Source: Xestospongia bergquistia
Lineage: Eukaryota; Porifera; Demospongiae; Haplosclerida; Petrosiidae
Length of the DNA stretch: 64,000 nt
Assembly: GCA_963965975.1 (NCBI GenBank)
Contig: OZ014413.1
Span: 7,013,501-7,077,500 of the forward strand
Direction of reading: 5' to 3'
Shown here: positions 19,535 through 48,837 of the stretch, in pieces
How positions within the stretch are numbered: the stretch's first letter is position 1
How the letters are laid out: each line of letters starts with the position of its first letter
Notes under the pieces: model-generated
What the model was told of the DNA's origin: nothing
Seen by the model: the letters and a program-made list of their open reading frames with translations, nothing else
The model's database searches: none
Position numbers and translations under genes: made by a program

Positions 19535-19689
19535 TGCGGAAGATAAAGGAAAAGAGTTGTTACTGTAAGCACATGTACATGTGTAGTGGTGAATATTGAT
19601 GATTGATGACTGGTGTTAATACATTCTGATATAATCTACTATTACAATAATTTTAAAACTTGATATTAAAGTGTATATTAATTAATATT

Positions 19690-20130
19690 TGATATTAAAG
19701 TGTAAATATTACCCTTGAGTGCTCTCTCTTTTCAAAGGCAGCTGATCTCCTTCTGGGTCTAATGCTGGTGTGACATGATGAAGCAGGCTTTGGAAATATT
19801 GTTGGTACTGCTCCTGGCTTTAGCAGCTGCTTTCTTCGTAATCCAAGTTGCCCTGAGAAACAAAAGAACACAAAGTCAAAACCTAACATAATACTGTTAA
19901 TGTCATACCTGAAACAACAGACTGTGATTCAAAATTGTCTTGAGTAAAGTGCTTACTACACACATATGAGTACTCAGAAGGAGAATGTCAGTCAGCTCTA
20001 GTGGTCTTTATCTGCCTGTTCCACGTTGCTCTCAATTGAGCATTCTTTGGGAATGTAAACAGGCTAACTTTATCTTTGTGGGTACTGCTACAGTTGGCTT
20101 CTACACATCTTACTCTTACCACATGTATAA
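19690..20130 (-). pseudogene. THAP exons 1-2, right arm, reverse strand (copy 1)
   Basis: On the minus strand the THAP exon reads RCVEANCSSTHKDKVSLFTF and ends with CSKHFTQDNF, so the C-x2-H end is intact here. The ATG is lost, and a TGA replaces the Trp that reads TDWHSP in the left arm. After a GTATGA...TTCTCAG intron a second exon encodes RRKQLLKPGAVPTIFPKP, the basic stretch that normally follows a THAP domain. The two arms carry different damage. Confidence 0.7.
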
Positions 20131-20332
20131 ATGTGTTCCCCCTTGTACGTCACCGATTGACCACGCCCACTAACGGAAGTATTTTCGCTAAATGGCGGAT
20201 TGCTAGAAATTTGCAACGTTTGATCCAAAATTTCGAGTAGAGTAGCGCGTTTTGGCAATTTAAGATATTTTTGCAGGTAATACTACTTCATCACAAACAA
20301 ATTGCAAACAAAAAAATTTGGGGGTTCAGTTA

Positions 20333-21940
20333 TCATTTATGCAAAATTATTTTTCACACTGATTTTTAAACCTGAAGTTTGTCTTCAAGTGGTGATCACT
20401 TGCATATGATGAAAAAGATGTAGTTATAGTGAGTTGGCATACACCTTTAATCAGTGACTTATTATTAATTTTTAGTAGAGAATTGTTAGTGAGCAAGTGT
20501 AAAGTTAGGAATGTTATTAGGAAATGGTGTAGATTTTTGAGGTTTATCTATTATTTATACAGAGATTTGATTAGTTGTATTCAAAAATAATCACTGTCTA
20601 TGTAGCATCAGTTGATATGATTAACTCATGATCAATTTGTGTACACATTTGAATGTCCTTGTTTCTTACTACTTGTATATATATTGTTAACTGATTCCAC
20701 TATAGAGTATTTGAGGCTATGAACTAGACCTGAAGGAATCTTATTTTCTGCTCATCACAAGATATTGTATACACTCACAACAATTTATAACTGCTATGGT
20801 ACTTGCTTGACTTAACAACCTAATTTTTATGACTGGTTTGTCAGTCTGCATCCAGTTTTGATTTTGTCATATAATAAGAAAAGATGACAAATCCAACGAT
20901 ATACCTGTTCTCTTGACAGGTTTGTTCTAGCTGTTGAACTCACGTGGTGGGTGCCTTACTATTCAACTACATAATATACAGTATTTTAACTGTACACAAA
21001 GACAGAAGAAATGCATAAATACCCATATTATACGTAAAAAGGACACTATTAATTTTCAATTAATAGACATACCCCCTCAGATATAGTGATTTTGGGTCGT
21101 GATATTAATTCATCCTATGTAACTAGTTGGAACTACTACCAACTTGATCCAATATAGCATATAGTTTCATTTTTGGTAGAAATATCAAACAGACAAATGT
21201 TGGAAGCAATGTCAAAACCTGTCACATATCATACCCGTGTGTGTAGTGCCATTTTTATGCATATTCAGTAAGTTTTGAAAATAATTGGACACACAGATTA
21301 CCAAATTCAAGGAATCATGTAAGCGATATAAAATACTAACAACACAAATATCACCATAAACAGTGAATGACCATTCTTTACTTTATATGCATCAATGGCG
21401 AGTTTTTCCTTAATACATTTTCTACAAAACGGAAAAAAAAGTCTCATTTATTGCTATAACTTCACAAAATTTGTTGTAAACAATACTAAAACTTACTAAA
21501 TGTTGAATTTTATATGTGTTATTCAGTTTCCATGTAAAATAAAAAGATTTCAATATTGACACAATTTTCTATCAAAATTGAAAGAATTTAGTCACATTGC
21601 CCATTTTCTGTAATCATTTTGTGCACTCATGTACACTAGACCTACCTTGATAAAAGATAATTATGGTTCTTGTTTTGCTAGAGACAATTGTGACTTTTTC
21701 TAATAACAAAACTATACAATTTATTACAAAAATGTGTGAAACTAAAAGTATTCATTATTGAGTCTATTATTTAAAACATCATAATGGATTACTTCCTTTT
21801 ATAACACTCAAAATTTGTCATGCTTACCACGTCTGTCTTACATAAATTATTAATGTTAAAAGTTATAAGCAAGTGAAGTTTTTAACAATTTTAGTCTCCT
21901 TACTTGATTGCAATCACAGTTGAAGATATTTTGTCTGGAG
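20333..21940. other. Non-coding part of the tandem unit
   Basis: About 1.6 kb of AT-rich sequence without a recognisable frame between the THAP element and the transporter-like pseudogene. It is repeated at 25179-26786. Confidence 0.5.
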
Positions 21941-22292: not shown

Positions 22293-22576
22293 TACATATA
22301 TAGGTATCTACCTTCTAAATCCTTACCTTTGAGCCCCTGCCCTGGATTGAAACTAACCTCATAAAAATATTTGCCATAGTCTCAGCTACTCATATGTGTC
22401 ATGAACTTTATGAGAGCTAGATTATACATGTTATTGACATGGTTACATGCTACTATAGAAGAGATTATATTTTACTCAACTTGACCGGGATAAAAAATAA
22501 GCTAGTAATCTCTATGTCTGACTGTTTTTTTCTCTCTCTTTCTCTCACATACACACGCAGGCTCACTCAAACTCAT

Positions 22577-22781
22577 CTTCTATATCATTTGCTATTAGAA
22601 ATAAATTTAATGTGTCTGATTTATATATGGCTTCTGATACTTTGGATACAGGATTAGATGCAGTAGCTCAAGGGTATACTAAATTACCACCAGATAAAGT
22701 ACCATGGAGTGTATTTGAGATTTACTCTCACAATGCATATAAGGTGGATGCATTGCTATAACTTTGATCAGATAAGATATG
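22577..22781 (+). CDS. Putative exon of an unidentified gene (copy 2)
   Basis: Identical to 17731-17935; see that entry. Family unknown. Confidence 0.3.
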
Positions 22782-23013
22782 ACATAGTCTGATCTAGAGT
22801 GAATATTACTTCTAATTCTGCAACTATTTAACAAGATAGCATATGGTCATGAAATGACCCAAGTTTTTAATCAAAAGTCCACTTATTCATTTATAATGTC
22901 ATGCCCTTACAATTATTTTATAATCTTGTAAAATAGGACACTGAATATTTATATAGCAACTCAAGAGTATATTTTTAATTGTTATTTTATATTCTCTATT
23001 ATGTATTATAACT

Positions 23014-23214
23014 ATGAATTATAAACATTATACAATACATACTGTTCTTACTGAATTTAAGTGGGTAGCTGATTTTAGGCAAGTTGTTGCAGAAACTAAG
23101 TCATGGTTGCTTGAAAAATTATTTGGTGATGTTTATGTTGGATATAAAGTATTACACATACAGCCATATTGTGATCATCTTGTAGCTCAAAGTCCTAATC
23201 TGAGCTTTTGTTAG
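23014..23214 (+). CDS. Short open frame, unidentified (copy 2)
   Basis: Identical to 18168-18368; 66 codons, family unknown. Confidence 0.25.
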   Translation: MNYKHYTIHTVLTEFKWVADFRQVVAETKSWLLEKLFGDVYVGYKVLHIQPYCDHLVAQSPNLSFC

Positions 23215-23632
23215 TAGTAAGATATTGTTCCTGTCACATATAATATATATACTAATGTCTTGTATTGTGTTATTACTATCACACAATAACATGCTTGAGA
23301 ACAAACATATATGACTTATCCACTAGTGTTACTATAATGTATAGATTACGTTATATCTCATGTTGCTATTTATAGTACTGATTATCATATAGGGTAAACT
23401 AGATACCTGTAGCAATGAAGGTAATGTTTTCAGATTACAAGGAGTTAAATTTATAAATAATAAACTACTACCATCTTACAGAGCCACTATTAATTAACAA
23501 GGTTATAAATAATATGAGTTAAGCTTACTGAGATGTCAAAACATATTTAGTAAAGGTTAGTGTACTTGATAAAACATTATATCGTTATGGCATCACATCT
23601 TAGGTCACACTCCCAGTGTATTTGAACCAGGG

Positions 23633-25178
23633 TAACTGAAACCCAAAATTTTTGTTTGTAATTTGTTTGTGATGAAGTACTATTACCTGCAAAAATATCC
23701 TAAATTGCCAAAACGCGCTAATTCTACTCGAAATTTTGGATCAAAAGTTGCAAATTTCTAGCAATCCGCCATTTTGTCAAAAATACTTCCGTTAGTGGGG
23801 GTGGTCAATCGGTGACGTACAAGGGGGAACACGTTTATACATGTGATAACAGTAAGAATGGGAAAAAGATGTGTAGAAGCCAACTGTAGCAGTACCCACA
23901 ATGATAAAGTTAGCCTGTTTACATTCCCAAATAATGCTCAACTGAGAGCAAGGTGGAACAGGCAGATAAAGACCACTAGAACTGACTGGCATTCTCCTTC
24001 TGAGTACTCATGTGTGTGTAGTAATTTTTACAGATACTCAACCTAGTGACAAACTTGTATCCATAATCAAGAACAAATATTTGGTGGGTAGTATTTTTAA
24101 TTCATCACACACGTATCAAACATCACGGCTTGAGGCATTCCACAGCTTAGTTTTACAATATGCTCCAAAGCATACAGCATTCTCTTATGAAGGGATAAAT
24201 TCAAGGTCATTAGAGACTGACTACACATGCATAAATTTCAATAATCTTGTCTTAAATTTTAGGTTACAATTAGCTGCACTGCATTATAACACCAACAATA
24301 AACGAAAACAAGCCCCTACTGGAAATGGGTCTAAAGGTTTAGCATTGCCTTCCCTAACTATAAAAAAGGAGGATACATAGTGCGGAAGATAAAGGAAAAG
24401 AGTTGTTACTGTAAGCACATGTACATGTGTAGTGGTGAATATTGATGATTGATGACTGGTGTTAATACATTCTGATATAATCTACTATTACAATAATTTT
24501 AAAACTTGATATTAAAGTGTATATTAATTAATATTTGATATTAAAGTGTAAATATTACCCTTGAGTGCTCTCTCTTTTCAAAGGCAGCTGATCTCCTTCT
24601 GGGTCTAATGCTGGTGTGACATGATGAAGCAGGCTTTGGAAATATTGTTGGTACTGCTCCTGGCTTTAGCAGCTGCTTTCTTCGTAATCCAAGTTGCCCT
24701 GAGAAACAAAAGAACACAAAGTCAAAACCTAACATAATACTGTTAATGTCATACCTGAAACAACAGACTGTGATTCAAAATTGTCTTGAGTAAAGTGCTT
24801 ACTACACACATATGAGTACTCAGAAGGAGAATGTCAGTCAGCTCTAGTGGTCTTTATCTGCCTGTTCCACGTTGCTCTCAATTGAGCATTCTTTGGGAAT
24901 GTAAACAGGCTAACTTTATCTTTGTGGGTACTGCTACAGTTGGCTTCTACACATCTTACTCTTACCACATGTATAAATGTGTTCCCCCTTGTACGTCACC
25001 GATTGACCACGCCCACTAACGGAAGTATTTTCGCTAAATGGCGGATTGCTAGAAATTTGCAACGTTTGATCCAAAATTTCGAGTAGAGTAGCGCGTTTTG
25101 GCAATTTAAGATATTTTTGCAGGTAATACTACTTCATCACAAACAAATTGCAAACAAAAAAATTTGGGGGTTCAGTTA
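23633..25178. mobile_element. Foldback THAP-transposase element (copy 2)
   Basis: Identical to the element at 18787-20332. The left-arm THAP exon is at 23843-24046, the C-terminal segment at 24036-24380 (intron 24206-24262) and the right-arm reverse-strand THAP exons at about 24536-24976. It moved with the tandem duplication, not by a separate insertion, because its flanks are also identical. Confidence 0.8.
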
Positions 25179-26795
25179 TCATTTATGCAAAATTATTTTT
25201 CACACTGATTTTTAAACCTGAAGTTTGTCTTCAAGTGGTGATCACTTGCATATGATGAAAAAGATGTAGTTATAGTGAGTTGGCATACACCTTTAATCAG
25301 TGACTTATTATTAATTTTTAGTAGAGAATTGTTAGTGAGCAAGTGTAAAGTTAGGAATGTTATTAGGAAATGGTGTAGATTTTTGAGGTTTATCTATTAT
25401 TTATACAGAGATTTGATTAGTTGTATTCAAAAATAATCACTGTCTATGTAGCATCAGTTGATATGATTAACTCATGATCAATTTGTGTACACATTTGAAT
25501 GTCCTTGTTTCTTACTACTTGTATATATATTGTTAACTGATTCCACTATAGAGTATTTGAGGCTATGAACTAGACCTGAAGGAATCTTATTTTCTGCTCA
25601 TCACAAGATATTGTATACACTCACAACAATTTATAACTGCTATGGTACTTGCTTGACTTAACAACCTAATTTTTATGACTGGTTTGTCAGTCTGCATCCA
25701 GTTTTGATTTTGTCATATAATAAGAAAAGATGACAAATCCAACGATATACCTGTTCTCTTGACAGGTTTGTTCTAGCTGTTGAACTCACGTGGTGGGTGC
25801 CTTACTATTCAACTACATAATATACAGTATTTTAACTGTACACAAAGACAGAAGAAATGCATAAATACCCATATTATACGTAAAAAGGACACTATTAATT
25901 TTCAATTAATAGACATACCCCCTCAGATATAGTGATTTTGGGTCGTGATATTAATTCATCCTATGTAACTAGTTGGAACTACTACCAACTTGATCCAATA
26001 TAGCATATAGTTTCATTTTTGGTAGAAATATCAAACAGACAAATGTTGGAAGCAATGTCAAAACCTGTCACATATCATACCCGTGTGTGTAGTGCCATTT
26101 TTATGCATATTCAGTAAGTTTTGAAAATAATTGGACACACAGATTACCAAATTCAAGGAATCATGTAAGCGATATAAAATACTAACAACACAAATATCAC
26201 CATAAACAGTGAATGACCATTCTTTACTTTATATGCATCAATGGCGAGTTTTTCCTTAATACATTTTCTACAAAACGGAAAAAAAAGTCTCATTTATTGC
26301 TATAACTTCACAAAATTTGTTGTAAACAATACTAAAACTTACTAAATGTTGAATTTTATATGTGTTATTCAGTTTCCATGTAAAATAAAAAGATTTCAAT
26401 ATTGACACAATTTTCTATCAAAATTGAAAGAATTTAGTCACATTGCCCATTTTCTGTAATCATTTTGTGCACTCATGTACACTAGACCTACCTTGATAAA
26501 AGATAATTATGGTTCTTGTTTTGCTAGAGACAATTGTGACTTTTTCTAATAACAAAACTATACAATTTATTACAAAAATGTGTGAAACTAAAAGTATTCA
26601 TTATTGAGTCTATTATTTAAAACATCATAATGGATTACTTCCTTTTATAACACTCAAAATTTGTCATGCTTACCACGTCTGTCTTACATAAATTATTAAT
26701 GTTAAAAGTTATAAGCAAGTGAAGTTTTTAACAATTTTAGTCTCCTTACTTGATTGCAATCACAGTTGAAGATATTTTGTCTGGAGGTATGGCTC

Positions 26796-28190: not shown

Positions 28191-29435
28191 TTACTGTTTC
28201 TCTTCTATTGCCAGTATTTCCTTTTCATCAATATCTTCAATGAATGTTGTCTCAGCTGACGTAATGCATTCTATCTTTGACTCTGTCTTAATACAATCTA
28301 TAGCTGTAACAGTAACAATCTCTTTTTCCAGCTTAGTAGAAGCCATAGCTGTACATGAATTGTCAGTTACCTTAAAGACAGGTTTATTGCGTTTAGAGGC
28401 AAATACATATGATGTAAGTTCATTAAAGTCTTTGCCTGAAACATTAAAGAACCATCGCTTCCAAATAATCCTTACTTCCCTGGAGCGAAGACAATGCATT
28501 ATAAAGATGAATAGACCATGAAAGGCAGTAATGATCACAAATAATGCAGCAAAGAGATCTCATATTGTCCTATTGGTATGGATATCTTGAGTGGCTAACA
28601 CTCCAATACCCCATCCCAGACCAAACATGACAGACAATGTTATAACAATAACAAGTTGCTCACGAACAAATTTTACATTAACAATGTTTTTTGATTTGAT
28701 ATCTGATGGAAATTTTTTTCGTAGAAGAGAGACAATAATGATGAGAAATACTGCCCAATTAAATATATATATCATTAGAAATGGAACTACCATACCAATA
28801 TAATATGGTTCATTAAAAGCACGACAACTATAAATAAAATGCAAAATTTTTTATATACAAATCTAATTAATATACTTACAAATGATCACTCAAGTAGTTT
28901 TTATAATTGGGAGCAAAACAGAACAAGACAATGAACAATGGAGTAACTACAAGTAAGAAATGACTATCTAGTACATATTGATATTAAGTACTCACTCCAT
29001 GATAATACTGTTGCTTTTAAAACAAAATGATGAATTTTCTTCCCAAGAACAATCACTAAATTCATATACAAGTTGATCGCTTCAGCAGCCATGACCATAA
29101 ACGTAACAAGAAAAAAATACTGCAAGACAGCAGCAGTAAGAACACAAAGACCAGGGACAGTTTGACTGTGTACTGCAAAGATGAAGGCAATGTAGAGACC
29201 AGATAAAGCTAAACACAAATTAAGAAGAAGTTGTCCATGATCAGAAGTACGTAGTTTTCTATCAGACAACATAATGAAATGAGAATAAATCAATAATATA
29301 CTTGTTAGCAAGATAAGAGATGACAGTAATCGTTAGACAAAAAAGAGAGACAATGATACCAATATAGGTCACAGAATCCAATAACAATGTTAGTCCAGTT
29401 TGCTCTGCTGGTTCATCAATAACAGGAGACACATC
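28191..29435 (-). other. 7TM domain and cytoplasmic tail of the giant receptor
   Basis: Exons 29302-29435, 28996-29258, 28880-28946 and 28191-28827. TM1 [18 protein letters not shown]2 [20 protein letters not shown]3 after the conserved Cys of [17 protein letters not shown]4 [15 protein letters not shown]; the ECL2 Cys in [11 protein letters not shown]5; TM6 [13 protein letters not shown], typical of adhesion GPCRs. A TGA (28560-28562) then interrupts ECL3, and TM7 [20 protein letters not shown] continues in the same frame with a tail ending in EEKQ. Literal translation would lose TM7 and the tail. Confidence 0.85.
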
Positions 29436-32400
29436 CTATAATATATGATAATTATAATTAATAATTTTTTTCCACTTACAAGTAATATAGCAAAGTTAGT
29501 GAGATGATTACATTCACATACAACTTCTGTTTTCTTATTAGTAGTGTTATAACATCCTTTCTTAGACCAGTCTCCATATCCATCTATTTGAAATGTTATA
29601 TTTAAACATCAAGTACCACAACTTACTGTCTAAAGATTGATTCCAGAATGAACATTGTGGAAATGATCCATTTAATGTCTATAGGAAGTAAGACATCAAA
29701 TACATGCTATAATAATAGTTACTTACTGGATTGACCAGGAATCTTAGATTTACTGGAGTACTCAGTTTATTTATCATATCTACTCCTACAACAGTAGTTG
29801 AGATAATGACACTAGCTACTTCTAAATTATAATTTTTTCTCCTCAAGAATAAAGAGTCAGTAGTAAAAACTGAATGAGTGATTCTAGTGTTATTTTTAGT
29901 AAGATGTGTAAGTCCATTCAGTAAAGTGTTTGGTAAGTTGATAGCTCCAGTTGGCTGTTTAAGAGGTGATCCAAATACTAAATCATTAGAATTAAGAGTT
30001 TGACTGTCATCTGAAAATCCTCTATAATTTACACTGAATGTTTGACCAAATTGTATGAATTCATCAGAATCCACTAGTTGTACAGATACAGCAAATGATT
30101 TCTGTGTTAAAATTATGGGTTCAGAAATATTAGTAATTGGTAATGTCTCTACAACTGAATCAATAGCTTCTAGCATTCTGTGTAAAGAAACAATACTAAT
30201 CTAAAAAGGAGAACAAAGTTAACTGACTTAGCTGATGTGTTAGATGTTTCTTGGCTAGTCTGTAAAGTATCTTGATTGACATCTAAGATATTACCAACCA
30301 CTTCCAAAAAAGTAACAGACAACTAAAAATAAGAAAATAGATACTTAATCAGAACAGAGGACTTCTTACACTAATATTTCCTGACACATCTTCTGTAGCT
30401 GTGATCAGAACAATAACACTTGCAATTACTTCAGTAGAGCCTAATCTATTGCTATCACTAGTAAGGTTTTCTAGCCGTTCTACCTTTTTTGCAGCTGGTG
30501 CCTAAAAATTACGGTAGTTATAATCAAAATTTTCAAGTATGTTCACAAACATTTATTAGGTCACAAATCTCACGAGTTAAGTCACTAAAATTACAAGCTG
30601 CTATATTTGCTTCAGCCCACATAGCTCCATTGGTAAAGTCTCCTCCACAATATCTAGTAGCTTCAAGTATTCCTCCATCTTCTGAACTCTTACTACCACA
30701 AGGACAGCTTCTTATGACTTGCACTCCAATGTTAGTTTCAGGCCACAATATAGTAATATTAAGATCTTGTCTACCAGAATATGATGGTATTGTAGTATTG
30801 GTAGCAGGACAACCATCTTGATGAACATTAAGTAATTATGTAAATTATATTAATAAACTCAATATATTGACATACCAAATCTATCCACTTCAACTAATGA
30901 GATATTAATATTAATTTGTTTACTTAGTCCAGCCAATTCTTGTTGTACTCTAACTCTGAGTTGTTCAGTAGCTCTATCTTTTGTTACCAAAGTAATAACA
31001 ATAGGAATAATCTTGAGTTGTTCAGTGTAACTACATTAATTGAATTGTAGTCACTTAATAATATTATTTTTAAACATGTACACACTTTATGTTATTTGCA
31101 GGTTGTATAAAGAAAAATGTACTTGAAGTGTTAGATAAATTGCTGCCAGAAAGTAAACTGTTAGCCTACCAAGTAAATTTAGATATTCTATTCTAGTCAT
31201 CTTACTGATGATGAACAATACCTGACTAATAAGACTATTAACTACTTCTGATAAATTCCTACTTGCTATCTCTTCAGTTATGTGCATCTCAGCTGTATAT
31301 TGAACAACATCTATAATGAATGTTAATACAATAAAGTAAACAATTCTATTAATACTTGAAATGTTTAGTATAACATGTGAAGAGTTCACTGAGGTAATAT
31401 TTCCTCTAATTAAACTTCTAGCTTCACAATGATAAAATCCTCTGTCATTCAGATCCAGTTCAGAAAATATCAATACAGAAGGATCATTGTTGTCATTTGG
31501 AATTAACACATTATCTTTATACCACAAAATAGTAGGAATAGGATTACCAGTAGCTCTACAAGTAAGGTTAACATTGGAGTAGAGATTTCCTGAAGTGTTT
31601 GCAGGTTGTTGTGTGATTTTGGGCAAAATGTAGATTGTGACAACTATAGTTAAAGGTAATTGATAATGTAACATAATATGAATTGATTCATATAAACTTG
31701 CCTTGTTCACAATTAATACCAGTATATCCACTAGAACAATTGCACACATATCCATTACTTAAACTCTGACATTTACCATGTTTACCACAAGGAGAATTTA
31801 AACAGTAGTTTGTTGGTAAGGCTGATAAAAGACATGTGGTAACCATTGAATTCCTTCATTGAGGCACTTACATTCAATTACATGTAGTACATATGGTGTC
31901 ATTAATACAGCTTCAATTTTATCTACATTTTTAATTCTACAGGAGTAGCTACCATTATCACTTCCTCTCAAGTCTGTTATGTGTAGCACACTTGTAGTAG
32001 GAAAATAGTTAGAATGAAATCCATTAGAGTGTTCTGATGAAACAATTGCTCTTCTATTTGTGTTCAGTAAAAGTTGTCCATTTTTTCTCCACACAATAAC
32101 AGGTCTTGGAATACCATCTGCAGTACAGTTGAATGATACACTTTGTGCCTTTCGTTTGGATGTATACCCTCCACTCTTGCTTAATAAAACTGCAATAGCT
32201 AAAAAATAACCATTTTGGGATGAGTACAATATGCACATATGAATGTGTTAATTCAATATATTTCCTACAACCTTTAAACGTTTGCAGTCATCATGTATCT
32301 ACAACTTTGTTGCAATTCATGTTATTTGTATGAGTTTACACAAATATTCAGTAATAACCTGCTTTCTTAGTAATGGTAAGGGATTTTGGCTAGTAGTTAA

Positions 32401-35400
32401 GTTTGCAATAATGAGTTTAGTTTTATCTTAGAGACAGAATGATATAGAAAATTGACTACTTGCATAGTGTATTTGTACAAACTAGTTAATTCATCCCTAA
32501 CTAGCTCTTGTTAACCCTACTTCTGTCTTTATATTTAACTTTCGTTACAAATAATTAAGGTTGTCATCTAAAGTTTGAAATACCACTATTAAACGAATTA
32601 CAAATATATATATAGCTTTAAAACAACAGCTACTCAAAATAATCTTACCTTCACATTGAACACCAGCTATTTCATTGTTTTCACAGTTTAACAAACTACT
32701 ATAAGACTTTGAACAATTGATCAATGAATTTTCAGATCCAGAACAAGAAAATGTTCCATATAAATATGGAGGATTGTTAGAAACTCCAAAATGATTACGA
32801 TAATAGTATTTATGAGATCCTGAAAATAATTATTAAAGGTCATTATAATGACACAAATATGTCGTACCAAAAGGTTGAAATCCAAGCTGTCGACAGACCA
32901 CATTGGAGTCAGCTTTTCCCCAGTTATCATCACATACTGAGCCCCAGGCATTGTTGTAACATATCTGTACATTGCCTTCATTATCTGTATTCCCTCCTAC
33001 AAGTCTGATATCACCATCAGAACAATTAATATACACAGTTGTTTTTGCTATTGTTATAATAAATAAAAGATCTTTCAATTATTTTGCATGTGTAAGTTAT
33101 AGAAACTTACACATGCAAAATACGGAAGCATCATTGTGTTGTCCACAGTTCTGTCCTTCGTAAGATACTTTGTATGAACAGTCCCAAATGCTAGCTTCAT
33201 GAACAGAACATTTTAGCTCAAACAGACCAATAGGCCATTCATCATTAAGGAATATGTTTTTAGTTGCCATTGCACCTATAAGACATACCAGTTGCACAAC
33301 TATTAATTATTTTGTCTTGTACCATATGGTGAGTATCCCAGATGAGAACAGATTACACTAGCTTCTTGTCATGTCCAGTGATGATCACAGATTGTACCCC
33401 ATGTACTATTAATACAAACCTCTACTCTTCCCCTCAACACTGCACCATCTCCTAGCCTAATATCACCATCAGTGCAAGGTGCTATGTGTGTGAATATGAA
33501 TTGAAGAAAGTTGCAATATGACTTACATTCACATACAACTCCAGCATCATTACTATGTGTACAGCTAGTAACACCACATGATTGCTGATTACATTCTAAC
33601 AAAGATGACTCAGTGCCAGTGCAGTAAAGATTAGATAAGAGAATTGGACCAGTTCCTGAACCAAAGTATCTCACTCTTGCTCCTAAATTAGATATAAATT
33701 ATTATTAATATTCTGATACTAAAGCAAACCTATTGGTAAATATCCCTGCTGTTTACAAACAACATTGGCATCATCAGTATCCCAACTGGTAGAACAAACT
33801 GTTCCCCAAGCCTCATTAATGCAGATTTCAACTCTCCCCTCATGTGGACCACTACCACCCACTAGTCTGATTTCACCATTACTACAATTAGCTTGTTTGG
33901 CAGACACTACTATATTATAAAATTACTGTTTTAAATCAAACTATTATTACTTTGACATACAACTCCAGCATCATTGTGAGAATTACAATTGTATAAGACA
34001 GCATTGCTATGTGAACAGTTCACAAGATGTTCTTCAGAACCAGTACAATTGATATCAGTGATACCAAATGATAGTTGACCTTCAGTATAACAGTTATAAG
34101 TTGGAACAGCACCTATAAAATAAAAAAAAACAATTACAGAATATACATTACAAAAGTTGTAATACCATAAGTAGAATATCCTAATTCTTTACAGACAACT
34201 TGAGCATCTTTGAAATCCCAGCTCTGATCACAAAGTGGAGTCCATGTTGTCTCTATACAAATTTCAACACGACCAGCATATTTCACAGTAGAACCACTCA
34301 ACCTTACAGCATTATTCATACAAGACCCTGCATGTTATTAAAAACAAATGATATTCATTAAACATTATATTACCATGGCAAATTACACTTGCTACTGCAC
34401 TATCTCCACAATACATTGCAGCATATACAGCATCATAAGAACATTGCAAGAGAGAGTTATAACTACCAGATAAGGAACATCCAACATAAGAAATAATTTG
34501 AGGTGCTTGCCTATGACCAAAATAACTATACCAAAATGCTTTTGCACCTTTAATACAAATAAATAAGTAGTCATTGCTTTATGCAAATATCTACCTGTAG
34601 GTTGATATCCAAGTTGTTTACATACTACATTAGCATCATACGTACTCCAGGAATTATGACATACAGATCCCCAGATCTTATTATAACATATCTCCACTCT
34701 ACCTTCTTCTTCATTGATACCACCAACCAAACGTACATCACCATTGTTACAAGATCTATCCACTGTATTATTGGTATCTATAAATAGATGGATTATAGAT
34801 AGCTTGCATTATATCTGTACTTACATTGACATACAACAACTGCATCTTGATGGTAGCTACAATAATGGTAGCTATCATTATAAGAACAGTCCCATATGTT
34901 ACTTCTATACCAGTACAGTTCAAATCATATATATATGTAGGACTATAATAGCTGTAGTAGTAGTAGTAGTAATAGGTAGTAGACTGTGAAATTGCACCTA
35001 CCAATGTACTATTTAAAGCAATCATTTTATCTATTATATTTACCATATGGAGAGTATCCTAACTGTTTACAAACAACACTGGCATCTTTGTCATCAAAAC
35101 TTTTATTACAGATAGTGCCCCAAGTTCCATTACGACACACCTCTACTCTACCTATTGTACTATAACTCGTACCAGCAAGATGTAAATCACCATCATTACA
35201 TTTAGCTGTACAATATCAACAATAAAACAACAAAGATGTTTAAAGTTTTAGAACCTTGACATGTAACTCCTCCATAGTTATAAGAGTTCAAAGAATTATA
35301 ACTATAACAGCTAATTGGATATTTAGAGCAATCTAGTAGAGACTGTTTAGTGCCATTACATATAAACTCATATGGGATTAAAGGTAGTGTAGGTAAGTCC

Positions 35401-38104
35401 AAAAATGAACTGGAGTATCCTGAACCAGTACCACCTGCAATAATTCTATGAGGATGATGTTACATTTATATACAAAATAATTACCTTTATTTGAGAATCC
35501 CAGGATTCGACAAATAGTATTTACTTTATTGTAGTTGTTGTAATTATCAGCACATATTCCAAACCACACATTGTTGTAACATATTTCAGTCCGTCCATTC
35601 ATTGAAGATAATCCACCAGACAGCTTCATCTCACCATTATCGCAGTTAGAATATTTAACTTCATAGTCTGAATAAATTACATAAATATTAACAGAGGACA
35701 TGTATGTATAGTCAAATATTAATTTTAGTATGTATTACCATTAAAACAAGCTACTGCTGCATCATGTAATGAATGACATGTGTAATGAATCATTCCATTA
35801 TGAGGACAATCAGAGAGTCTTAGTTCATTTCCAATACAATTAACATCAATAAAATGATGGGGAAGAAAATATTCATACTTAATGTTACCCATTGGCACAG
35901 AACCTGTGAAAACATTAGGTGTAGGTTAACAACACAATACTTATCTCTTACCTAAGTGAGAATATCCCAGTTGTCTACATGCAACTTTGGCATCATTATC
36001 ATCAAAGAAGTCACTACATACAGTGCCCCATGTTCCATTAACACACACTTCAATACGGCCAATGTGTTTGTTGTTATTGTTATAGGAAATGATCTGTATG
36101 TCTCCATCAGTACAGTCTATAAATGTACATAATAAAACAATGCTCACCATTGATATACTTTAACTTACTGTGACATTTTATTGCAGCTATACTTTTACTA
36201 TCACAAGAAGAGGTCTTAGTGAAGTGGCTAAAGGTACATTCAGATAGAGTAGTAGCAGTGTTAGAACAAGTAATATCAGTAACCAGCAATATGTTAATAG
36301 CAGCATTAGGAAATTGACCAGTGTAGACTGTACCTCCTAAAATGAGAATTGATATGAGTTTTAAAATGTTCATGCATAACCTGCTTGATATCCCAGTTCA
36401 TGACATATAACTTTAACATCATTATAATCAATACCACTATTACAAAGTGTTCCCCAGACTCCATTGATACATAATAGAACTCTTCCTTCATTAAGACTGG
36501 GTCCATCTACTAGTTGAACATCATAATCAGTACAGTTTGAACGAGTGACACTTAAGTCTATAAGTAAAACAAAGAATGGACATTTGTAAAAATGCTTTTC
36601 TATGATTAAGTCAATAACCTTGGCAAATAACACCAGCATCTTCATTGCTATAACAGTTTGATCCAACACTAACTACTTCACTATACACACAATTATACAA
36701 AGTATCTTCATTTCCTTTACAACTCATATTGAACATCGTGTGTGGAAGAATAGTCTCTGTATAAAATGAGGTCTTGGCAATAGCACCTATAAAATGTTGT
36801 TTACAATATATGTATAAAATTTGAAGCAATTTACCATAAGGAGAAAAATTTAGCTGTCTACAGACCACACTGGCATCAATATTGTTCCAGTAGTCATCAC
36901 AAATAGTACCCCATGTACCATTAATGCAAACCTCAACTCGACCAAAGTCGTTGTACTTGCTGTCACCCTTTAAACGAACATCTCCATGTGTACAGGGAGC
37001 TGAGAAAAATTAGACATTAGAATTAAGGTACTTGAAAGTAAAATGTCGCTATTACCTTCACATTTAACACCAGCATGATATGAACACTGTGAGTAAGTGT
37101 AATAGATACAACTCAGTAGATTGTTCTCACTTCCAGAGCAATGAAAATAAGAGAAATGAACTGGTCCAAATCCTTTTCCAAATGTTGAAACTGGAACTGC
37201 TCCTACAGAACATAATTCCTTTATATTGTAGGAAGATGTTAACAAATCATTAACTTTCCAGTAGTACAATAATAAGGGGGACTCCATCCATAATCAAAAA
37301 ATAGTCCATATAAATTAACAGTGTTTACTACTGTAACAAGAGCCCATTCCTTTAGCCTTTAACTTAAATGATAAACTGTGAACCTGTGGCATTACTTGAC
37401 AAGTGTCACGTATCCTACTAACCAATGGTAATGTATCCTAGTTGTCTGCATACAACTTTAGCTTCTTTACTGTCCCATGAAGTAGAACACACAGATCCCC
37501 AGACACTATTATAACATACTTCAACCCTACCCTCATGCTTTGTTCCTCCATTCACCAATCTGATCTCACCATTAGTACAGTTATCAGTTGTATTTGGAGC
37601 TGTATGTATAGAATGTCTCATTATTTTAGTCATTATTAAAATATTATCTAAAATACCTAGGCACTGAACATAAGCATCTTCATAATAATAACAGCTATGT
37701 TGTTGAATATTGTTATAAGGACAATTAAATATACTATTTTCAGTTCCATCACAGTTGAGGTCAATAATATGAAATGATTTATGACTCTCAGTGTATGAAC
37801 CGGTACCAGCACTAGCACCTATTAACAACATCAACATAATTATGTAGAAATAACACAAACCTTCTCCTGGAAATCCCAGTTGTCTACATACTACACTGGC
37901 ATCATTGTTATCCCAGTAATCATCACATATAGTACCCCATGTGTTATTGACACATACTTCAACTCGTCCTATCAGTGGATTATTACTACCTACTAATCTG
38001 ATATCACCATGTTGACAAAATGCTGAAATGAATAACATAACACTTGCTATATTTTATGACCTCAAACTCACGTTGACATCTTACTCCACCATCATCATTG
38101 TGAT

Positions 38105-38140
<36 letters not shown>

Positions 38141-41100
38141 TAATATTGCAGTCTAGAAGTGAAAATTTTGGAGTTGAACAATACACATTATGGAGTGGAC
38201 CAGTTCCTTCACCAAAGTAAGCATTATATAAACTTTGAGCACCTGTTAAGTAATAAGAACAGTATTTAGTGCTTCAATACACTCCTGCTTTCATACCTGG
38301 GGTGGTGTATCCTAATGCGTTGCAGATTGTCTGAGCTTCTTCATATCCCCAACCATAGTCAGATATAGTACCTCAAGCATTATTGATACAAATCTCTACA
38401 GTGCCTTCGTAATCTGTGGAGCCTCCAAATAGTCTGACATGTCCATCGGTACAGTTAGAATAAGTAGAACCATGAACTAAATTTAATATAATTATAATGC
38501 ACATATGTATAGATATAGTCATTACTAACCAGGACATATGACATTAGCATCATATCTAGTAGAATAGCAAGCTGGAGCACTGGTATTGATTGTACAGTTA
38601 AACAAGTGATCCTCAGATCCACTACAATTTAAACCAGTAAAAAATGTGGGATCATAATAATTATTATAATAGATTGATGTAATTGCAAGTGACCCTTGAA
38701 AATTGGAAAAAGTTAGGACAATGTTATTATAATACATACCATATGAAGAAAATCCCAACTGTTTACAGACAACACTGGCATCATTGTTATCCCAAAAGCT
38801 ATCTCTACACACTGAACCCCATACTCCTCCAACACAAACCTGTACTGCACCATAGTAATAAGTACCACCATACAGACGAATATCTCCAGTAGTGCAAGCT
38901 TCTATAAGAGAATATATAAATCAGATTCATTAGTTAGAGCTAATGAATATTAAAATACTTTATAATTTTATTACTTTTATTCTAATTAATGAACCTGCAT
39001 GTAATTTGGGACCGGATAAAATCAACTGTGCACAGTTACTTTTAAAATAAAATTATGTAAAACTAGAATAACTTATGTTCAACTTTACAAAGTAATTTTC
39101 TCACAGGTTATGGTAATATTGTATGTAGGTACATACAATATTTCAACTAATACTGACCTTCACATGTAAGATTAACAACTTCATTGTTAGAACAATATTG
39201 AATGTTTGAGTTAACTGATGGACTACAAGAACTCAGTCTAGTATCACTGCGAGAACAATAAAATCTAGTGAAAATGATGGGATACTTCTCATTTGTCCAC
39301 CCCTTTTCATAGATATTGCCTACAGATATAATAATTAAATGAAACCACTTTATAAACAATTTTGTAATTAAACAAACCATATATGGAATAACCAAGTTCA
39401 TGACAAGCAACATAAGCTTCATTATACCTCCAATAGGAATTTAAACAAACTGTACCCCAAGCTCCATTAGTACACATATGAAGTATTCCCTTATTTGGTT
39501 TTGAGCCACCATAGAGTCTGATCTCTCCTTCAGTACAATTAACTGGAGCTTCAATGGTAGCTATAAAATATAATACAGTAACTGCAACTAGTGTGTTCAA
39601 TCACACTTACTCTTTTGGCAAAATACAGCAACAGCACCATAATAATAATAATAATAATAATAATTATAATAATTATAACAATATGAAGAGGATGATATCT
39701 CATAATGACAGTCTGTAAACTTTGTTTCATTTCCATAACATTGTACATTGGTGATATTTAAAGGATAGTTGCTATCATACCATACATTGTAGGAACTTTT
39801 AGCACCTAAAGAAATAAGGTGAAAATCATTAGAGGACATTTATATTATCAATTTACCATATGGTGAATATCCTAGTTCAGAACAAATTACACTAGCAAGA
39901 TTATCGTCAACTACAGAATTGCCATATCCACAGATTTTATTCCAAGTACCATTGATACAGACACGTACATTACCATGACGACTGGAGACACCAGAGTATA
40001 AACTTATCTCACCATCAGTACATGGAGCTAGATTTCAGACAATAATAATGTCATATGTTAATGACATCGAACAACTCACGTTCACATTTAACTCCAGATT
40101 CTTGATAATTGTTACATTGAGGATAGGAATACGGGAACTGATTTATATAGCATTTGAAAAGACTATTTTGATAACTTGAACAAGATGTATAGTAGATAAG
40201 AATAGGATTAGTGCTAATACCAAAATGAGAATTGACAAAATATCCAGCACCTATAGGTATAATGTATATGTTACATTTATAAAATATTATATTATTAATT
40301 TATACCTTGGTATCCTAACTGATGACAGACAGCATATGCTTCTCTAGCATCCCAATGCCTATCACAGACAGTTCCCCAGACTCCATTGATACACACTTCT
40401 ACTCTTCCTTCATATTGTGTTATTCCATCTGTTAGTCTGATCTCCCCAGTAGTACAGTTAGAAAATGATACATGAAGCACTGCATAAAAACATCATAATA
40501 GAATTATCAGTTACTGGATACTAGAGGCCAATTATTTTAACACTAACAGGAGCTGTAAATATGTTATGTTTTAATAAACATTTGTTGAGCATTTTCAGTG
40601 TTAGCTAAATACAACACTAATCCAAAATCCATGGTAACCTACTTACATTGACATATTACTGAAGCATCATGATAGTGATTACAAGAATAGTTACTCAATT
40701 GATTTTGTGGACAGTCCCAAATTGACTCTTCATTTCCAGTACAGTTCAAGTCATTGATATGAATATACCAAGTTCCCTCAGTTAATGCATTAGTCTGTGC
40801 TGATGCTCCTAAAACAAATTTCCTATAAACATATAACAGTATATATTATGCCATATCTACCATGAGGTGAATATCCTAACATTCTACAGACTACACTGGC
40901 ATCTTTGTCATCCCAGAAGTCATCACACACAGTACCCCAGACATTATTAACACAAACTTGTACTCGACCATATCTCCTGAAGTAACTGCCTGACTCACTA
41001 TATAGACGAACTGTCCCATTCTCACAGGGAGCTAAAATTAAAATATATATACTTTAAGAGTATGTATGCACATATAAACATTTAATAGTTCAAACATGCC

Positions 41101-42064
41101 TTCACATATAACAGCTCCATCATAATAATGACTTCGACATCTAGAGTAAACATTAGTATACTTAAAGTTCTGATTGCACTTCACTAAGCTAGCTTCTGTT
41201 CCACTACAATACAAATACCCAAGTAGAATGGGTCCTGTACCCTGTGAGAATCCAAAATTTCTAGCATAGCCATATGAATAGCCTACAACAATTAAATGCC
41301 AATATAATAATGAAACCTTAGAATATACCTATTGTCAATGCACCAATCTGTCTACAAACAATTTTTGCTTCCTGACTACCCCAACCACTGAATGCACAGA
41401 CTGTCCCCCATGCTCTATTGAAACACACTTCAACTCTTCCTTGATATTGTGATACTCCACCTACTAAACGAACATCTCCATGATTACATTTGCTATAGTT
41501 AGCAAAACCTAGATCTACAAAAATTTCAAAATTAAGACAAATAATTATTTCACCAAACTAATAAAACACTCACATTCGCAAAATATATTAGCATCTTTAC
41601 TCAGAAAACAAGAGTAGTCAGAGAGATCATTGTAAGGACAGTCCAGTATTGTGTTCTCATTACCAGTACAGTTTAAATCAAGTATGTTGTGTAGAGTGGT
41701 AGATGAGGAGTAGTACACTATAGAAGATCCTATTGCACCTATAAGAGATGGAAAATTTAAGCCAATGATATAATATATGTATAAATATTATACCATAAGG
41801 CGAATATCCGAGTTGTTTACAGACCACGCTGGCATCATTGTTATCCCAGAAGTCAGCACAAATACTACCCCAAGTATTATTCAAACATATTTCAACAGCT
41901 CCATAGTAAGATGATGAGGACTATAAAATCAATAAACATGTATGGATTCAAATATTCCTGTTTAAACATACCACACGAACTGAACCATGTGAACATGTTT
42001 GAGCAACCACTGTATCTCTTAGAGATAAGCAGAGCAAGAGTTTTAACAAATGGGCAAGCAACAT
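28191..42064 (-). CDS. Giant SRCR-array adhesion GPCR, 56 exons, about 3,340 aa, with disabling lesions
   Basis: I phased 56 exons from ATG at 42064 to TAA at 28191-28193. They total 10,028 nt, one short of a multiple of three, the missing base being in the exon 34825-34997. Order: signal peptide (residues 1-22), 20 SRCR domains each coded by two exons, Ig, EGF, Ig, HRM, GAIN with canonical GPS, 7TM, about 100-residue cytoplasmic tail. Most introns are 40-60 nt. All inter-exon phases agree. Lesions are in-frame TGA at 38373-38375, 33369-33371 and 28560-28562, plus the 1-nt deletion in SRCR15. The family is known: adhesion GPCRs self-cleave at the GPS and signal through a tethered agonist. The SRCR array suggests binding of extracellular ligands (inference). 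Whether it is a young pseudogene, a damaged allele, an assembly error or a recoded gene cannot be told from sequence. Component domains are listed separately. Confidence 0.85.
28560..28562 (-). other. In-frame TGA between TM6 and TM7
   Basis: Minus-strand TGA between codons for HTNRTI and DLFAALF, inside exon 28191-28827. CGA to TGA is the simplest change. Unlike the two SRCR stops, this one cannot be bypassed by skipping a frame-neutral internal exon. Confidence 0.85.
29480..31310 (-). other. HRM and GAIN domains with GPS cleavage site
   Basis: Exons: 31222-31310, about 30876-31011, 30551-30816, 30370-30501, 30228-30322, 29727-30177, 29627-29678, 29480-29583. The 30551-30816 exon holds an HRM-like module with Cys/Trp spacing of hormone-receptor domains ([30 protein letters not shown]). 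The GAIN fold follows, and the GPS is canonical: [16 protein letters not shown], then [13 protein letters not shown]. The HL|T cleavage triad is intact, so autoproteolysis is predicted. The acceptor of the second exon is the least certain junction. Confidence 0.85.
31356..32198 (-). other. Ig - EGF - Ig segment of the giant receptor
   Basis: Exon 31872-32198 is an Ig domain ([19 protein letters not shown], then DNGSYSCRI). Exon 31702-31821 is an EGF module with six Cys ([12 protein letters not shown]...[12 protein letters not shown]) and ends at a GC donor (GCAAGT). Exon 31356-31643 is a second Ig domain ([19 protein letters not shown], then DRGFYHCEA). Phase 1 junctions link them to SRCR20 on one side and to the HRM/GAIN part on the other. 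A roughly 450-bp intron separates SRCR20 from the first Ig, so a separate promoter is possible, but the phases agree with one gene. Confidence 0.85.
33080..33120. repeat. Perfect 18-bp inverted repeat over a splice donor
   Basis: ATTTTGCATGTGTAAGTT, a 5-nt spacer, then its exact reverse complement. On the minus strand the first-transcribed arm spans the last bases of exon 33111-33275 and the donor GTAAGT, and the second arm lies inside the following intron. In the transcript the arms would form a hairpin that buries this donor site. Confidence 0.85.
33369..33371 (-). other. In-frame TGA in SRCR19
   Basis: Minus-strand TGA between codons for HHWT and QEASVIC. Both flanks are clearly SRCR in the same frame. 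The exon is 159 nt and frame-neutral if skipped. Confidence 0.85.
34825..36999 (-). other. SRCR domains 11-15
   Basis: Exons: SRCR11 36835-36999 + 36619-36786; SRCR12 36381-36557 + 36169-36336; SRCR13 35952-36116 + 35739-35903; SRCR14 35485-35667 + 35255-35434; SRCR15 35044-35205 + 34825-34997. The last exon is 173 nt, while every other SRCR exon after the first is a multiple of three. After the CTGIE phrase the reading shifts by one base, and the expected WDCSYND...DAVVVC continues in the other frame. The exon also begins with a run of six Tyr codons. SRCR13 and SRCR12 are more diverged than the others. Confidence 0.85.
38107..38142 (-). repeat. Coding (TAT)n microsatellite, Tyr run in SRCR8
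   Basis: Plus-strand (AAT/TAA)n reads on the minus strand as eleven consecutive Tyr codons between CNIN and [10 protein letters not shown]. The tract keeps the frame. Confidence 0.85.
38373..38375 (-). other. In-frame TGA in SRCR8
   Basis: Minus-strand TGA between codons for NNA and GTISDYGW. The conserved residue at this site of SRCR domains is Trp, so TGG to TGA is likely. The exon (38297-38476) is 180 nt, phase 1 at both ends, and could be skipped without shifting the frame. Confidence 0.85.
39611..41920 (-). other. SRCR domains 1-5
   Basis: Each domain is split into an N-half exon (pattern GxVEVCxNxxWGTxCDDxWDxxDAxVVCxQLGY) and a C-half exon (LxCxGxExxLxxC...DAxVxC). Exons (N-half + C-half): SRCR1 41794-41920 + 41574-41738; SRCR2 41329-41514 + 41100-41282; SRCR3 40861-41031 + 40647-40808; SRCR4 40306-40479 + 40080-40250; SRCR5 39857-40027 + 39611-39805. 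The SRCR2 C-half ends at a GC donor (GCATGT). SRCR5 has an in-frame (TAT)n tract encoding a run of Tyr just before its final Cys. Confidence 0.85.
39641..39675 (-). repeat. Coding (TAT)n microsatellite, Tyr run in SRCR5
   Basis: On the minus strand it encodes [20 protein letters not shown] just before the last Cys of the domain, nearly the same loop position as in SRCR8. Confidence 0.85.
41972..42064 (-). other. Exon 1: signal peptide of the giant receptor
   Basis: 93 nt, 31 codons, beginning [15 protein letters not shown] and ending in TCSHGSVRV, with donor GTATGT. It ends in phase 0; every later SRCR exon junction is phase 1. A decayed copy of this exon lies near 50160-50245. Confidence 0.85.
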
Positions 42065-46502: not shown

Positions 46503-47040
46503 AGTGATATATTATCACCTAGTAGTACATGAAAGATTGCTAATGCATTCACTCCTACATCTTCTCAAAGGTTATACTCAGCTTGTATTGTATGAAAGCA
46601 ATAAGAAATCTCAAGAGAGTCTAATGTTTATGTTGACATCTTTCACTATAGGTGAATGCATTATCATTGTTTTCTTAGTTGATCTAATTAACCACATGCT
46701 ATCACAACTCACCTACTATATGTTTTCCTTCTTTGGTAACTGTTAACAACATCAGCAAGTCAAACCAACTCAAGCAAGTGATATATTATCACCTAGTAGT
46801 ACATGAAAGATTGCTAATGCATTCACTCCTACATCTTCTCAAAGGTTATACTCAGCTTGCAATTGTATGAAAGCAATAAGAAATCTCAAGAGAGTCTAAT
46901 GTTTATGCTGACATCTTTCACTATAGGTGAATGCATTATCATTGTTATCTTAATTAACCACATGCTATCACAACTCACCTACTATGTTTTCCTTCTTTGG
47001 TAACTGTTAACAACATCAGCAAGTCAAACAAACTCAAGCA
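46503..47040 (+). repeat. Tandemly duplicated leader directly upstream of the 598-aa gene
   Basis: A unit of about 274 bp beginning AGTGATATATTATCACC and ending CAACTCAAGCA or AAACTCAAGCA occurs twice, at 46503-46776 and 46777-47040. The second copy ends exactly at the ATG at 47041. In the first copy the position of that ATG is occupied by the start of the second unit. The copies differ by a few substitutions and a roughly 10-bp deletion. The 80-codon frame at 46504-46746 translates this unit and is disrupted in the second copy, so I read it as promoter and 5' UTR. Confidence 0.85.
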
Positions 47041-48837
47041 ATGTCTCTGAAAGTTTTCCTTTACTTAAATTTGCTTGTTGTACTAGGTTGTGTCTGTAAA
47101 GCAACAGAGATACGTGAAAGTCTATTAATTATGGACATTCGTGACAAACCTTTGATGAATCAAGCAAGAGAACATTGTGATTTAGGTCTTCACGTTGACC
47201 AAAATAGAAACTGTGTGTGTCCAACAAGCAATTTTGGTGGTCTTTTGAAGTGTGAAACTTCCAACACCAATCACACACCTATAGTTTTCTTAAAACGAAG
47301 TTATTGGCTTGGCTATATTAACAACAGAACACTAGTAGCTGGTTTATGTAAGTTTTGTGACAGCTTTTATGCCAACACTACTGGCAAGTATATTCAATTG
47401 GAACATAACCATATACAATGTATAGGTTATCGAAATGAGTCTTCTAGTTTGTGTAGTAAGTGTAACAAACATTTTGCTGTCTCTATGAATTCTGAGAAGT
47501 TTGAATGTACTAAAGACTGTAAGAATATACCTAAAAATATTTCCATTTATTTGTTTACACAAATATTTCCTATAACTTTGCTCTTTCTTGGCCTATTTTT
47601 CACAAACTTTGGATTAGTCACAGGTCCTTTAAATGCTGTCATTTTCTTTGCTCAACTTTTTGATAAAGTCTTTGACCTTAGTGGTTTAGGACTAATTCCT
47701 GTTAACAATGCAAGTAAGCATTGGGCAAACATCCATGAAGCTCATTCAATTATTTACGGTATATGGAATTTACATTTCTTTTGGCCAGTGCTTCCTAATT
47801 TCTGTTTTTCAGAGGATATGTCAACAATCAGTATACTTGCGCTGAACTATATAGTTGCTGCATACCCTTTATTACTAATAGGAATAGCTGTTTTCATCCA
47901 CTGGATTGGAAAACAAGTCAACTGGACTGAATGCTGTCATCAAATACCACTATGTTGGCCCAACATTGACTACAATACTTCTCTTGGTAATGTAATAGCT
48001 TCTTTTATTCTCCTATCATATACACAATTTGCTGTTGTTACATTTTACTTGCTTATTCCAACCCCATTGTACAATGCAGACGGTTTCATTATGGCATATA
48101 AAGCATACTATGATGGTTCTATGTCTTACTTTGGTAAAGAGCATGCTCCATATGTCGCAGGGGCATTACTTGTGTCTGTTTTTCTTATTATATTTCCTAT
48201 TATTTTGCTCTTCTTTCGACCACAAGGATCACACATCTTTGACAAAGTACTAAAACCATTTCAAGCTGATTTTCGATGTGGTTGTTTATGTAATTTCTGT
48301 AGAAGTTGTGAAGTTTGGAAATGTTCTCTTAGTATTGGGTTACATGACTATCGCTGGGTAGCTGGCAAATACTTTATACTGCGTCTTTTCTTTCTGTGTT
48401 TGTTTACTGTGTCTCCAGGGTCTGTTGAAGTTTTTCTCATTGAAAGCTTCCTTTGTATGATAGAATCACTTTTCTTTTTAATTTTCAGACCATATAAACA
48501 TTTCTTTTATAACTATCTAGATGGGATTGTGTTTGCTCTACTTGCTTTTATTTCTCTTCTCAATATGTACCAGTATTACCTGACAACTAACAACATGCCT
48601 CTTTCTGAAACTGCTCTGGTCTTCCAATGTGTCTTTCTTTATATACCATTAGTATGGATTATTGGATACATAATTTTTAGAATAAAAAGAAAGATACGTT
48701 GTTGTCAACCACAAAGACATCAACGAAACCTTGTAATAGAACTGAAGGAAGATAACTTTTCTTACAGTAGTACTGATACCAAACAGCTATTTACACAAAG
48801 CATGCCAGAATATGGAACAACACAAAAAATTAACTAG
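47041..48837 (+). CDS. Short multi-pass membrane paralogue of the beta-helix receptors (598 aa)
   Basis: Single-exon gene with a signal peptide (residues 1-21). No beta-helix ectodomain is present. Residues 45-165 are the Cys-rich neck (HCDLGLHVDQNRNCVCPT, YWLGYI, SSLCSKCNKHF, FECTKDC), equivalent to the neck of the 1241- and 1257-aa proteins. The same membrane domain follows: FGLVTGPLNAVIFFAQLFD, WPVLPNFCFSEDM, AYYDGSMSYFGKEHAPY, KPFQADFRCG...YRWVAGKYFILRL and FRPYKHFFYNYLDG. About nine membrane segments. The tail ends in TQSMPEYGTTQKIN with a Tyr that could be phosphorylated (inference). It defines the neck plus membrane domain as the core of this family. I do not recognise a named family. 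Confidence 0.85.
   Translation: MSLKVFLYLNLLVVLGCVCKATEIRESLLIMDIRDKPLMNQAREHCDLGLHVDQNRNCVCPTSNFGGLLKCETSNTNHTPIVFLKRSYWLGYINNRTLVAGLCKFCDSFYANTTGKYIQLEHNHIQCIGYRNESSSLCSKCNKHFAVSMNSEKFECTKDCKNIPKNISIYLFTQIFPITLLFLGLFFTNFGLVTGPLNAVIFFAQLFDKVFDLSGLGLIPVNNASKHWANIHEAHSIIYGIWNLHFFWPVLPNFCFSEDMSTISILALNYIVAAYPLLLIGIAVFIHWIGKQVNWTECCHQIPLCWPNIDYNTSLGNVIASFILLSYTQFAVVTFYLLIPTPLYNADGFIMAYKAYYDGSMSYFGKEHAPYVAGALLVSVFLIIFPIILLFFRPQGSHIFDKVLKPFQADFRCGCLCNFCRSCEVWKCSLSIGLHDYRWVAGKYFILRLFFLCLFTVSPGSVEVFLIESFLCMIESLFFLIFRPYKHFFYNYLDGIVFALLAFISLLNMYQYYLTTNNMPLSETALVFQCVFLYIPLVWIIGYIIFRIKRKIRCCQPQRHQRNLVIELKEDNFSYSSTDTKQLFTQSMPEYGTTQKIN

Follow-up and report, generated by a model that had tools for sequence, protein, structure and literature searches.

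The available text of Nordstrom et al. 2008 (PMC2246102) reports a scavenger receptor cysteine-rich (SRCR) domain in the N-terminus of an amphioxus adhesion G protein-coupled receptor (GPCR), and that of Krishnan et al. 2014 (PMC4302439) reports two Amphimedon adhesion GPCRs, Aq712029 and Aq715659, with multiple SRCR repeats. Table 1 of a further source, available in part (PMC10855680), places 7tm_2 among the top SRCR-accompanying domains in one species, which by column order is A. planci. In the accessible part of PMC6321704, 28 of 36 placozoan receptors with a C-type-lectin domain (CTLD) join this recognition domain to a secretin/adhesion seven-transmembrane (7TM) region, and in that of PMC6208332 the genes with which A. 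aerophoba responds to microbial patterns include an SRCR gene and a GPS-bearing GPCR, which are listed separately. Here we analyse a window, the 64,000-nucleotide stretch C3:7013501-7077500 of the sponge Xestospongia bergquistia (C3 is contig OZ014413.1; the genome comprises 146 Mb in 21 contigs), whose minus strand holds a gene for an adhesion GPCR with twenty SRCR domains. Compared to this locus, the amphioxus receptor has no array of such length in the text available, Aq712029 and Aq715659 resemble it by description only, in having multiple SRCR repeats on an adhesion GPCR, and the placozoan receptors are a functional parallel only, with CTLD rather than SRCR as the recognition domain.

As assembled, the window copy is a disabled but otherwise well-preserved gene of 57 exons; the contig also carries an open sister gene with this layout. 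We consider it very likely that the window copy is a recently inactivated, possibly polymorphic null, member of a tandemly duplicated family of sponge SRCR adhesion GPCRs. Our exon model, an ab initio first pass followed by exon-by-exon curation, has a coding length of 10,127 nt, which leaves a remainder of two on division by three. Read from 42064 to 28191, it encodes a signal peptide, 20 SRCR domains, Ig, EGF, Ig, an HRM-like domain, GAIN, GPS, 7TM and a tail. This module order, with an intact HL|T GPS, had been given by an original prediction made from the letters of the window, and the exon model and Pfam bear it out. The same prediction had described a single open gene model of 56 exons in which all inter-exon phases agree. 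That description fails on three in-frame TGA codons and a one-base deficit in exon 31, and the phases agree only if the exon 31 break is ignored. It had also noted correctly that the exon lengths sum to one base short of a multiple of three, but this shortfall is the exon 31 deficit and counts against an open frame rather than for it. An uninterrupted reading frame is thus absent from the window copy, with its three TGA codons and one frame break, and present in the sister gene, paralog g. At the last of the stops, between transmembrane helices 6 and 7 (TM6 and TM7), the residue is Arg in three outside homologues (P0002, P0003 and P0004) and Ser in a fourth (P0001).

Four paralogs carry the comparison on which these lesions are defined. 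With the HRM-GAIN-7TM part as query, the genome gave 191 matches, and by eye we counted at least 54 family loci among the matches listed (at least 13 on C3, the window included, 17 on C2, 11 on C7, 8 on C5, 4 on C10 and 1 on C4). The nearest relatives form a cluster of 12 loci at C3 7.86-8.42 Mb, at least 9 of which have a same-strand SRCR match upstream of the core among the SRCR matches listed. Four of the 12 (g, d, l and c), which lie ~0.85-1.4 Mb from the window copy, were selected for their similarity and position, without regard to intactness; in all four, an SRCR array is followed by the core on the same strand, in the order seen in the window. Projection of the window exons recovered 57 of 57 in g, 53 of 57 in d (SRCR19-20 absent), 51 of the 52 sought in l and, in c, all 28 SRCR exons sought together with 16 core exons, one of them partial. 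The projected codons number 2157 (g), 1947 (d), 1866 (l) and 1485 (c) in the SRCR part, exon 31 being left out, and 1050, 1049, 1045 and 1001, respectively, in the core, and the only stops among them are the terminal TAA codons of g and c, compared to three premature stops in the window copy. Assembled from its exons, paralog g (C3:8007106-8024033) has 10,083 nt in 57 exons and encodes 3,360 amino acids (aa) with no internal stop; it is 81.0% identical to the window reading, and Pfam finds in it 20 SRCR stretches (1249 bits), two Ig, GPS and 7tm_2. The architecture of 20 SRCR domains on a GAIN-7TM receptor is therefore real: the proposal that the two form one unit is upheld by the intact paralog g and by the array and core in all four paralogs, but not by the window copy, which is not open.

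Homology gene models of g and d took in insert-like sequence and unspliced introns and were replaced by the exon projection; the stops in stop-tolerant versions of these models lie in inserts, in retained introns or past the true end, a judgement made by eye and, for g, also from the assembled exons. Paralog d (C3:7926001-7945410; loci L033, L034, L023 and L002) lacks exons 38-41 and has no stop in its projected codons, and it reads as a natural 18-SRCR version of the receptor. Elsewhere on the contig, at C3 8.305-8.360 Mb, 7tm_2 matches at 8307104-8315978 lie on the same strand as SRCR matches at 8332705-8358802; the matches listed for the window core do not include these 7tm_2 places, and the region perhaps holds a second SRCR-GPCR lineage.

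When two parts of the window reading were run against Pfam, SRCR was found with an E-value of 1.9e-132 in 7 stretches (first 857 aa), Ig_3 with 1.1e-27 in 2 stretches, GPS with 9.1e-17 (1.1e-17 in paralog g), 7tm_2 with 1.1e-23 when the stop was written as X (8.6e-25 in the open paralog g), and EGF with 3.1e-4 at 21.4 bits, against a cut-off of 21.5; no match to the Pfam GAIN model was reported for this reading. Each SRCR domain is encoded by two exons, SRCR1 by three, and is interrupted by an intron behind an 'LGY..' motif; the introns of the array are in phase 1 except for the first, which is in phase 0. With domain borders set by hand, 17 of the 20 domains have 8 cysteines, two have 9 and SRCR8 has 6. 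Group A SRCR domains have 6 cysteines and two exons, and group B domains 8 cysteines and one exon; the array thus mixes a group A trait, two exons per domain, with a group B trait, 8 cysteines in most domains. In the core, exons 45-48 form a stretch running into the HRM-like domain, the GPS motif (CNHL|T) falls in exons 52-53 (29678-29480), and the last exon encodes TM5 to TM7. The core sequence matches the solved receptors ADGRG2, ADGRG6 and ADGRL3, and the GPS motif and 7TM, both shown by sequence, are features of adhesion GPCRs (class B2). The GAIN fold is suggested only by a moderate-confidence structure model of the homologue P0001, not of the window protein (mean predicted local distance difference test score 65.9), which matches the BAI3 GAIN-HormR structure 4dlo_A with a TM-score of 0.67 by target; the 7TM part of the same model matches that of ADGRG2.

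We also estimated the age of the damage. On terminal branches, the ratio of nonsynonymous to synonymous substitution (dN/dS) of the window copy compared to g, d and l was 0.24 in the SRCR part (1626 shared codons) and 0.43 in the core (1019 shared codons), with c left out; the ratios of g, d and l were 0.29-0.41 and 0.26-0.39, respectively. The low ratio indicates that the copy spent most of its history under constraint. In a simple model that gives transitions double weight, the three nonsense changes amount to ~65 neutral changes, or 0.0064 per site (0.0013-0.0187), on a branch whose synonymous divergence is 0.15-0.21. Inactivation would then fall roughly in the final ~3-4% of the branch; the range is wide (~1-13%), and this is an estimate and not a date.

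Several observations weigh against a recently disabled member of one joined receptor family. The dN/dS of the window copy is as low as in a working gene, with its core value barely over the paralog range, and nearly all of its splice sites are as well kept as those of a working gene. All three stops are TGA, as would ~35% of random new stops in the g coding sequence be, so that chance would give this result in ~4% of cases. The window copy is one assembled sequence, and a null allele or local assembly errors may lie behind the lesions. In the stretches taken, the first five exons of l and the first 13 of c went unrecognised, so that these two paralogs were only partly checked. The HRM-like domain, of a type that occurs in some adhesion GPCR subfamilies, scores an E-value of 6.9e-4 and 20.4 bits against a cut-off of 26.2 in the window reading, and Pfam reports no HRM in paralog g at E 0.01. 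An in-frame ATG lies directly before exon 42 in both the window and l, and in the window, g and c the sequence read on past exon 41 encodes a short hydrophobic tail. Some of these points would fit a gene that still works, its lesions being assembly errors or its stops being bypassed by RNA editing, readthrough or symmetrical SRCR exon skipping: dN/dS is low, the stops are uniformly TGA, exons 16 and 38 begin and end in phase 1 and could be skipped without loss of frame, and skipping of exon 31 would remove the break. We judge this very unlikely, as four lesions in 10.1 kb stand against none in the projected exons of the paralogs in the same assembly, which also makes sequencing error a weak alternative; moreover, the paralog residues at the stops differ (W, Q and R), so no single recoding fits, and the TM6-TM7 stop sits in the exon that also encodes the last three helices. 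The same symmetrical exons and last-exon stop would allow a useful product from the broken copy, either a soluble SRCR decoy ending at the first stop or, if the SRCR lesions were spliced out, a six-helix decoy, which is conceivable because a stop in the last exon would escape decay; this asks for coordinated skipping around three SRCR lesions, has no transcript support and seems to us hardly credible.

The ATG and the hydrophobic tails would fit a pair of neighbouring genes, in which a 20-SRCR protein stops after exon 41 and an independent Ig-EGF-Ig-GAIN-7TM receptor begins near exon 42. No other intron of the locus is as long as the one between SRCR array and Ig exon (450 nt), where the original prediction had placed a possible split. 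An Amphimedon protein with the same 20 SRCR domains (P0077, 2,276 aa) ends exactly at the exon-41 boundary, and no SRCR is listed for P0019 and P0020, the nearest receptors in Amphimedon. We nevertheless regard two genes as improbable, given that array and core stand together in the same strand and order in all four paralogs examined. In g, splice sites and phase are kept across the junction, where the counterpart of the long intron is 447 nt and ~77% identical; neither g nor d has an ATG between the upstream in-frame stop and exon 42, read-through past exon 41 in l stops within about five codons, the counterpart of exon 42 is internal in P0019 and P0020, and the end of P0077 may itself be a read-through of the exon-41 donor.

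If the window copy is a recently inactivated member of a family of joined receptors, its mRNA would mostly be lost to nonsense-mediated decay, and no seven-helix receptor would be made from it, because the last stop precedes TM7 in the final exon. By analogy with the adhesion GPCR family, the SRCR array of intact members would bind particles, microbes or matrix, the GAIN domain would self-cleave at HL|T, and loss of the N-terminal fragment would expose a tethered agonist, TNFAILL, that acts through the 7TM region on a G protein. The direct coupling of pattern recognition to G-protein signalling suggested in the original prediction would take this form. Open, shortened (18-SRCR) and broken copies coexist in this one genome. 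A more far-reaching account, which we hold to be rather doubtful, is that a fixed 20-SRCR block, whose domains have each retained a distinct identity and position in two sponge species, was fused to a self-cleaving 7TM core and later amplified in tandem into a fast-turning, individually variable system of self/non-self or microbe receptors acting via G proteins, with the window copy as a segregating null allele.

Coordinates of the receptor gene copy, its parts and its lesions in the window.
Feature	Position	Strand	Basis or comparison
Whole gene copy, disabled as assembled	28191..42064	-	Curated 57-exon model and ab initio model
Exon 1: start codon, signal peptide, start of SRCR1	41972..42064	-	Similar start in paralogs g and d
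Exons 1-41: array of 20 SRCR domains	32649..42064	-	Exon model and Pfam
Lesion 1: in-frame TGA, SRCR8, exon 16	38373..38375	-	TGG (Trp) in g, d, l and c
Lesion 2: exon 31, second half of SRCR15, 173 nt, one base short	34825..34997	-	Extra base in 4 of 4 paralogs
Lesion 3: in-frame TGA, SRCR19, exon 38	33369..33371	-	CAA (Gln) in g, l and c; exon absent in d
Longest intron, 450 nt, between SRCR array and Ig exon	32199..32648	-	Exon model
Exon 42: first Ig; start of conserved core common to Amphimedon P0019 and P0020	31872..32198	-	Pfam and alignment
Exon 43: EGF; GC donor (GC-AG), also in g, d, l and c	31702..31821	-	Exon model and Pfam
Exon 44: second Ig	31356..31643	-	Exon model and Pfam
Exon 48: HRM-like domain, 6 cysteines, under Pfam cut-off	30551..30816	-	Pfam and cysteine count
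Exons 49-53: GAIN region, GPS at its end	29480..30501	-	Pfam; model of homologue P0001
Exons 54-57: end of stalk, seven transmembrane helices, cytoplasmic tail	28191..29435	-	Pfam; alignment to P0001-P0004
Lesion 4: in-frame TGA between TM6 and TM7, exon 57	28560..28562	-	CGA (Arg) in g, d, l and c

The ab initio model alone invented introns of 36 and 120 nt and thereby hid two stops, skipped exon 31 and omitted most of the exon half before the first stop; we rejected it because these sites are read without interruption in the paralogs and in outside homologues. At the end of exon 5 (41100-41106), the window copy offers GCATGT or a weak GTGAAG, where paralog g has a GTAAGT donor, and this splice donor is possibly decaying. 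Just downstream of the receptor 3' end, a direct repeat (17449-21500 and 22295-26346) has a period of 4,846 bp, and its two units match at 100% over 4,052 bp or more. It stems either from a tandem duplication of very recent date or from duplication in the assembly; an open reading frame (ORF) of 136 aa lies in each unit, and the one tested has no Pfam match. The rest of the window contains two tandem single-exon MFS-like ORFs (51389-52933, under the Pfam cut-off, and 55641-57242, minus strand), a third fragment resembling them by eye (57433-57885), two single-exon ORFs of ~1,255 aa on opposite strands (2794-6558 and 12947-16720), and a 608-aa single-exon ORF with hydrophobic stretches (47011-48834); neither the ~1,255-aa ORFs nor the 608-aa ORF has a Pfam match at E 0.001.

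The closest relatives outside this genome divide the window layout between them. Amphimedon queenslandica P0019 (annotated as hemicentin-1-like, 2386 aa) shares the Ig-EGF-Ig-HRM-GAIN-GPS-7TM core from window exon 42 onward, with 56.5% identity over 1039 columns, and P0020 (LOC109590854, 1459 aa) shares it with 51.0% over 1079 columns, starting ~20 columns before exon 42; the modules upstream of the core in both are Ig/EGF or FN3, and SRCR is absent from their Pfam lists. In P0077 (A0A1X7TYN8), by comparison, the best matches of all 20 SRCR domains are colinear with the window at 42-78% identity per domain, compared to 36-54% for the best match between different window SRCR domains, but the protein stops after SRCR20 and 7tm_2 is unlisted. 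A further Amphimedon protein, P0074 (3069 aa), lists SRCR and EGF domains and no 7tm_2, and DMBT1-type proteins with long SRCR arrays, which are among the best matches for the SRCR20 region, have neither 7tm_2 nor GPS in the Pfam lists shown. Because the P0077 domains match in order, the 20-SRCR array seems to be older than the split of the two sponges, with array and core combined differently in each. Exon shuffling via phase-1 introns would be the natural reading; the alternative is an incomplete Amphimedon gene model. Within the Xestospongia genome, one stretch upstream of a core on C7 has Ig/EGF matches and one on C5 has Ig and a weak FN3, and no N-terminal module was recognised in the single stretches taken on C2 and C10.

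In our protein searches, which were limited by length, none of the matches listed (18 of 18, 53 of 53 and the best 120 of 137) lists both SRCR and 7tm_2, although some of the Pfam lists are partial. The parts available of PMC8242945, PMC12716839 and PMC4704026, which treat GPCR or SRCR repertoires of sponges and choanoflagellates, mention no 20-SRCR receptor, and the accessible portions of the open-licence literature gave no printed description of twenty SRCR domains with Ig-EGF-Ig in one receptor. To that extent the statement in the original prediction that no described receptor with exactly this layout was known to it holds, but SRCR-bearing adhesion GPCRs are known in kind, from the available text on amphioxus (2008) and Amphimedon (2014). 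The window copy should not be read as a working receptor, and the open paralog is a better basis for expression or structure work. In this genome, SRCR adhesion GPCRs form a tandem family that includes a complete 20-SRCR member and has one conserved Ig-EGF-Ig-GAIN-7TM core, with N-terminal blocks that vary among the clusters sampled; direct sensing of particles or microbes by sponges via G-protein-coupled scavenger receptors thereby becomes testable. Compared to the known systems, what is new here is this tandem organisation, the variation of N-termini between clusters on a single core, and a 20-SRCR array that matches an Amphimedon protein in order in all 20 domains.

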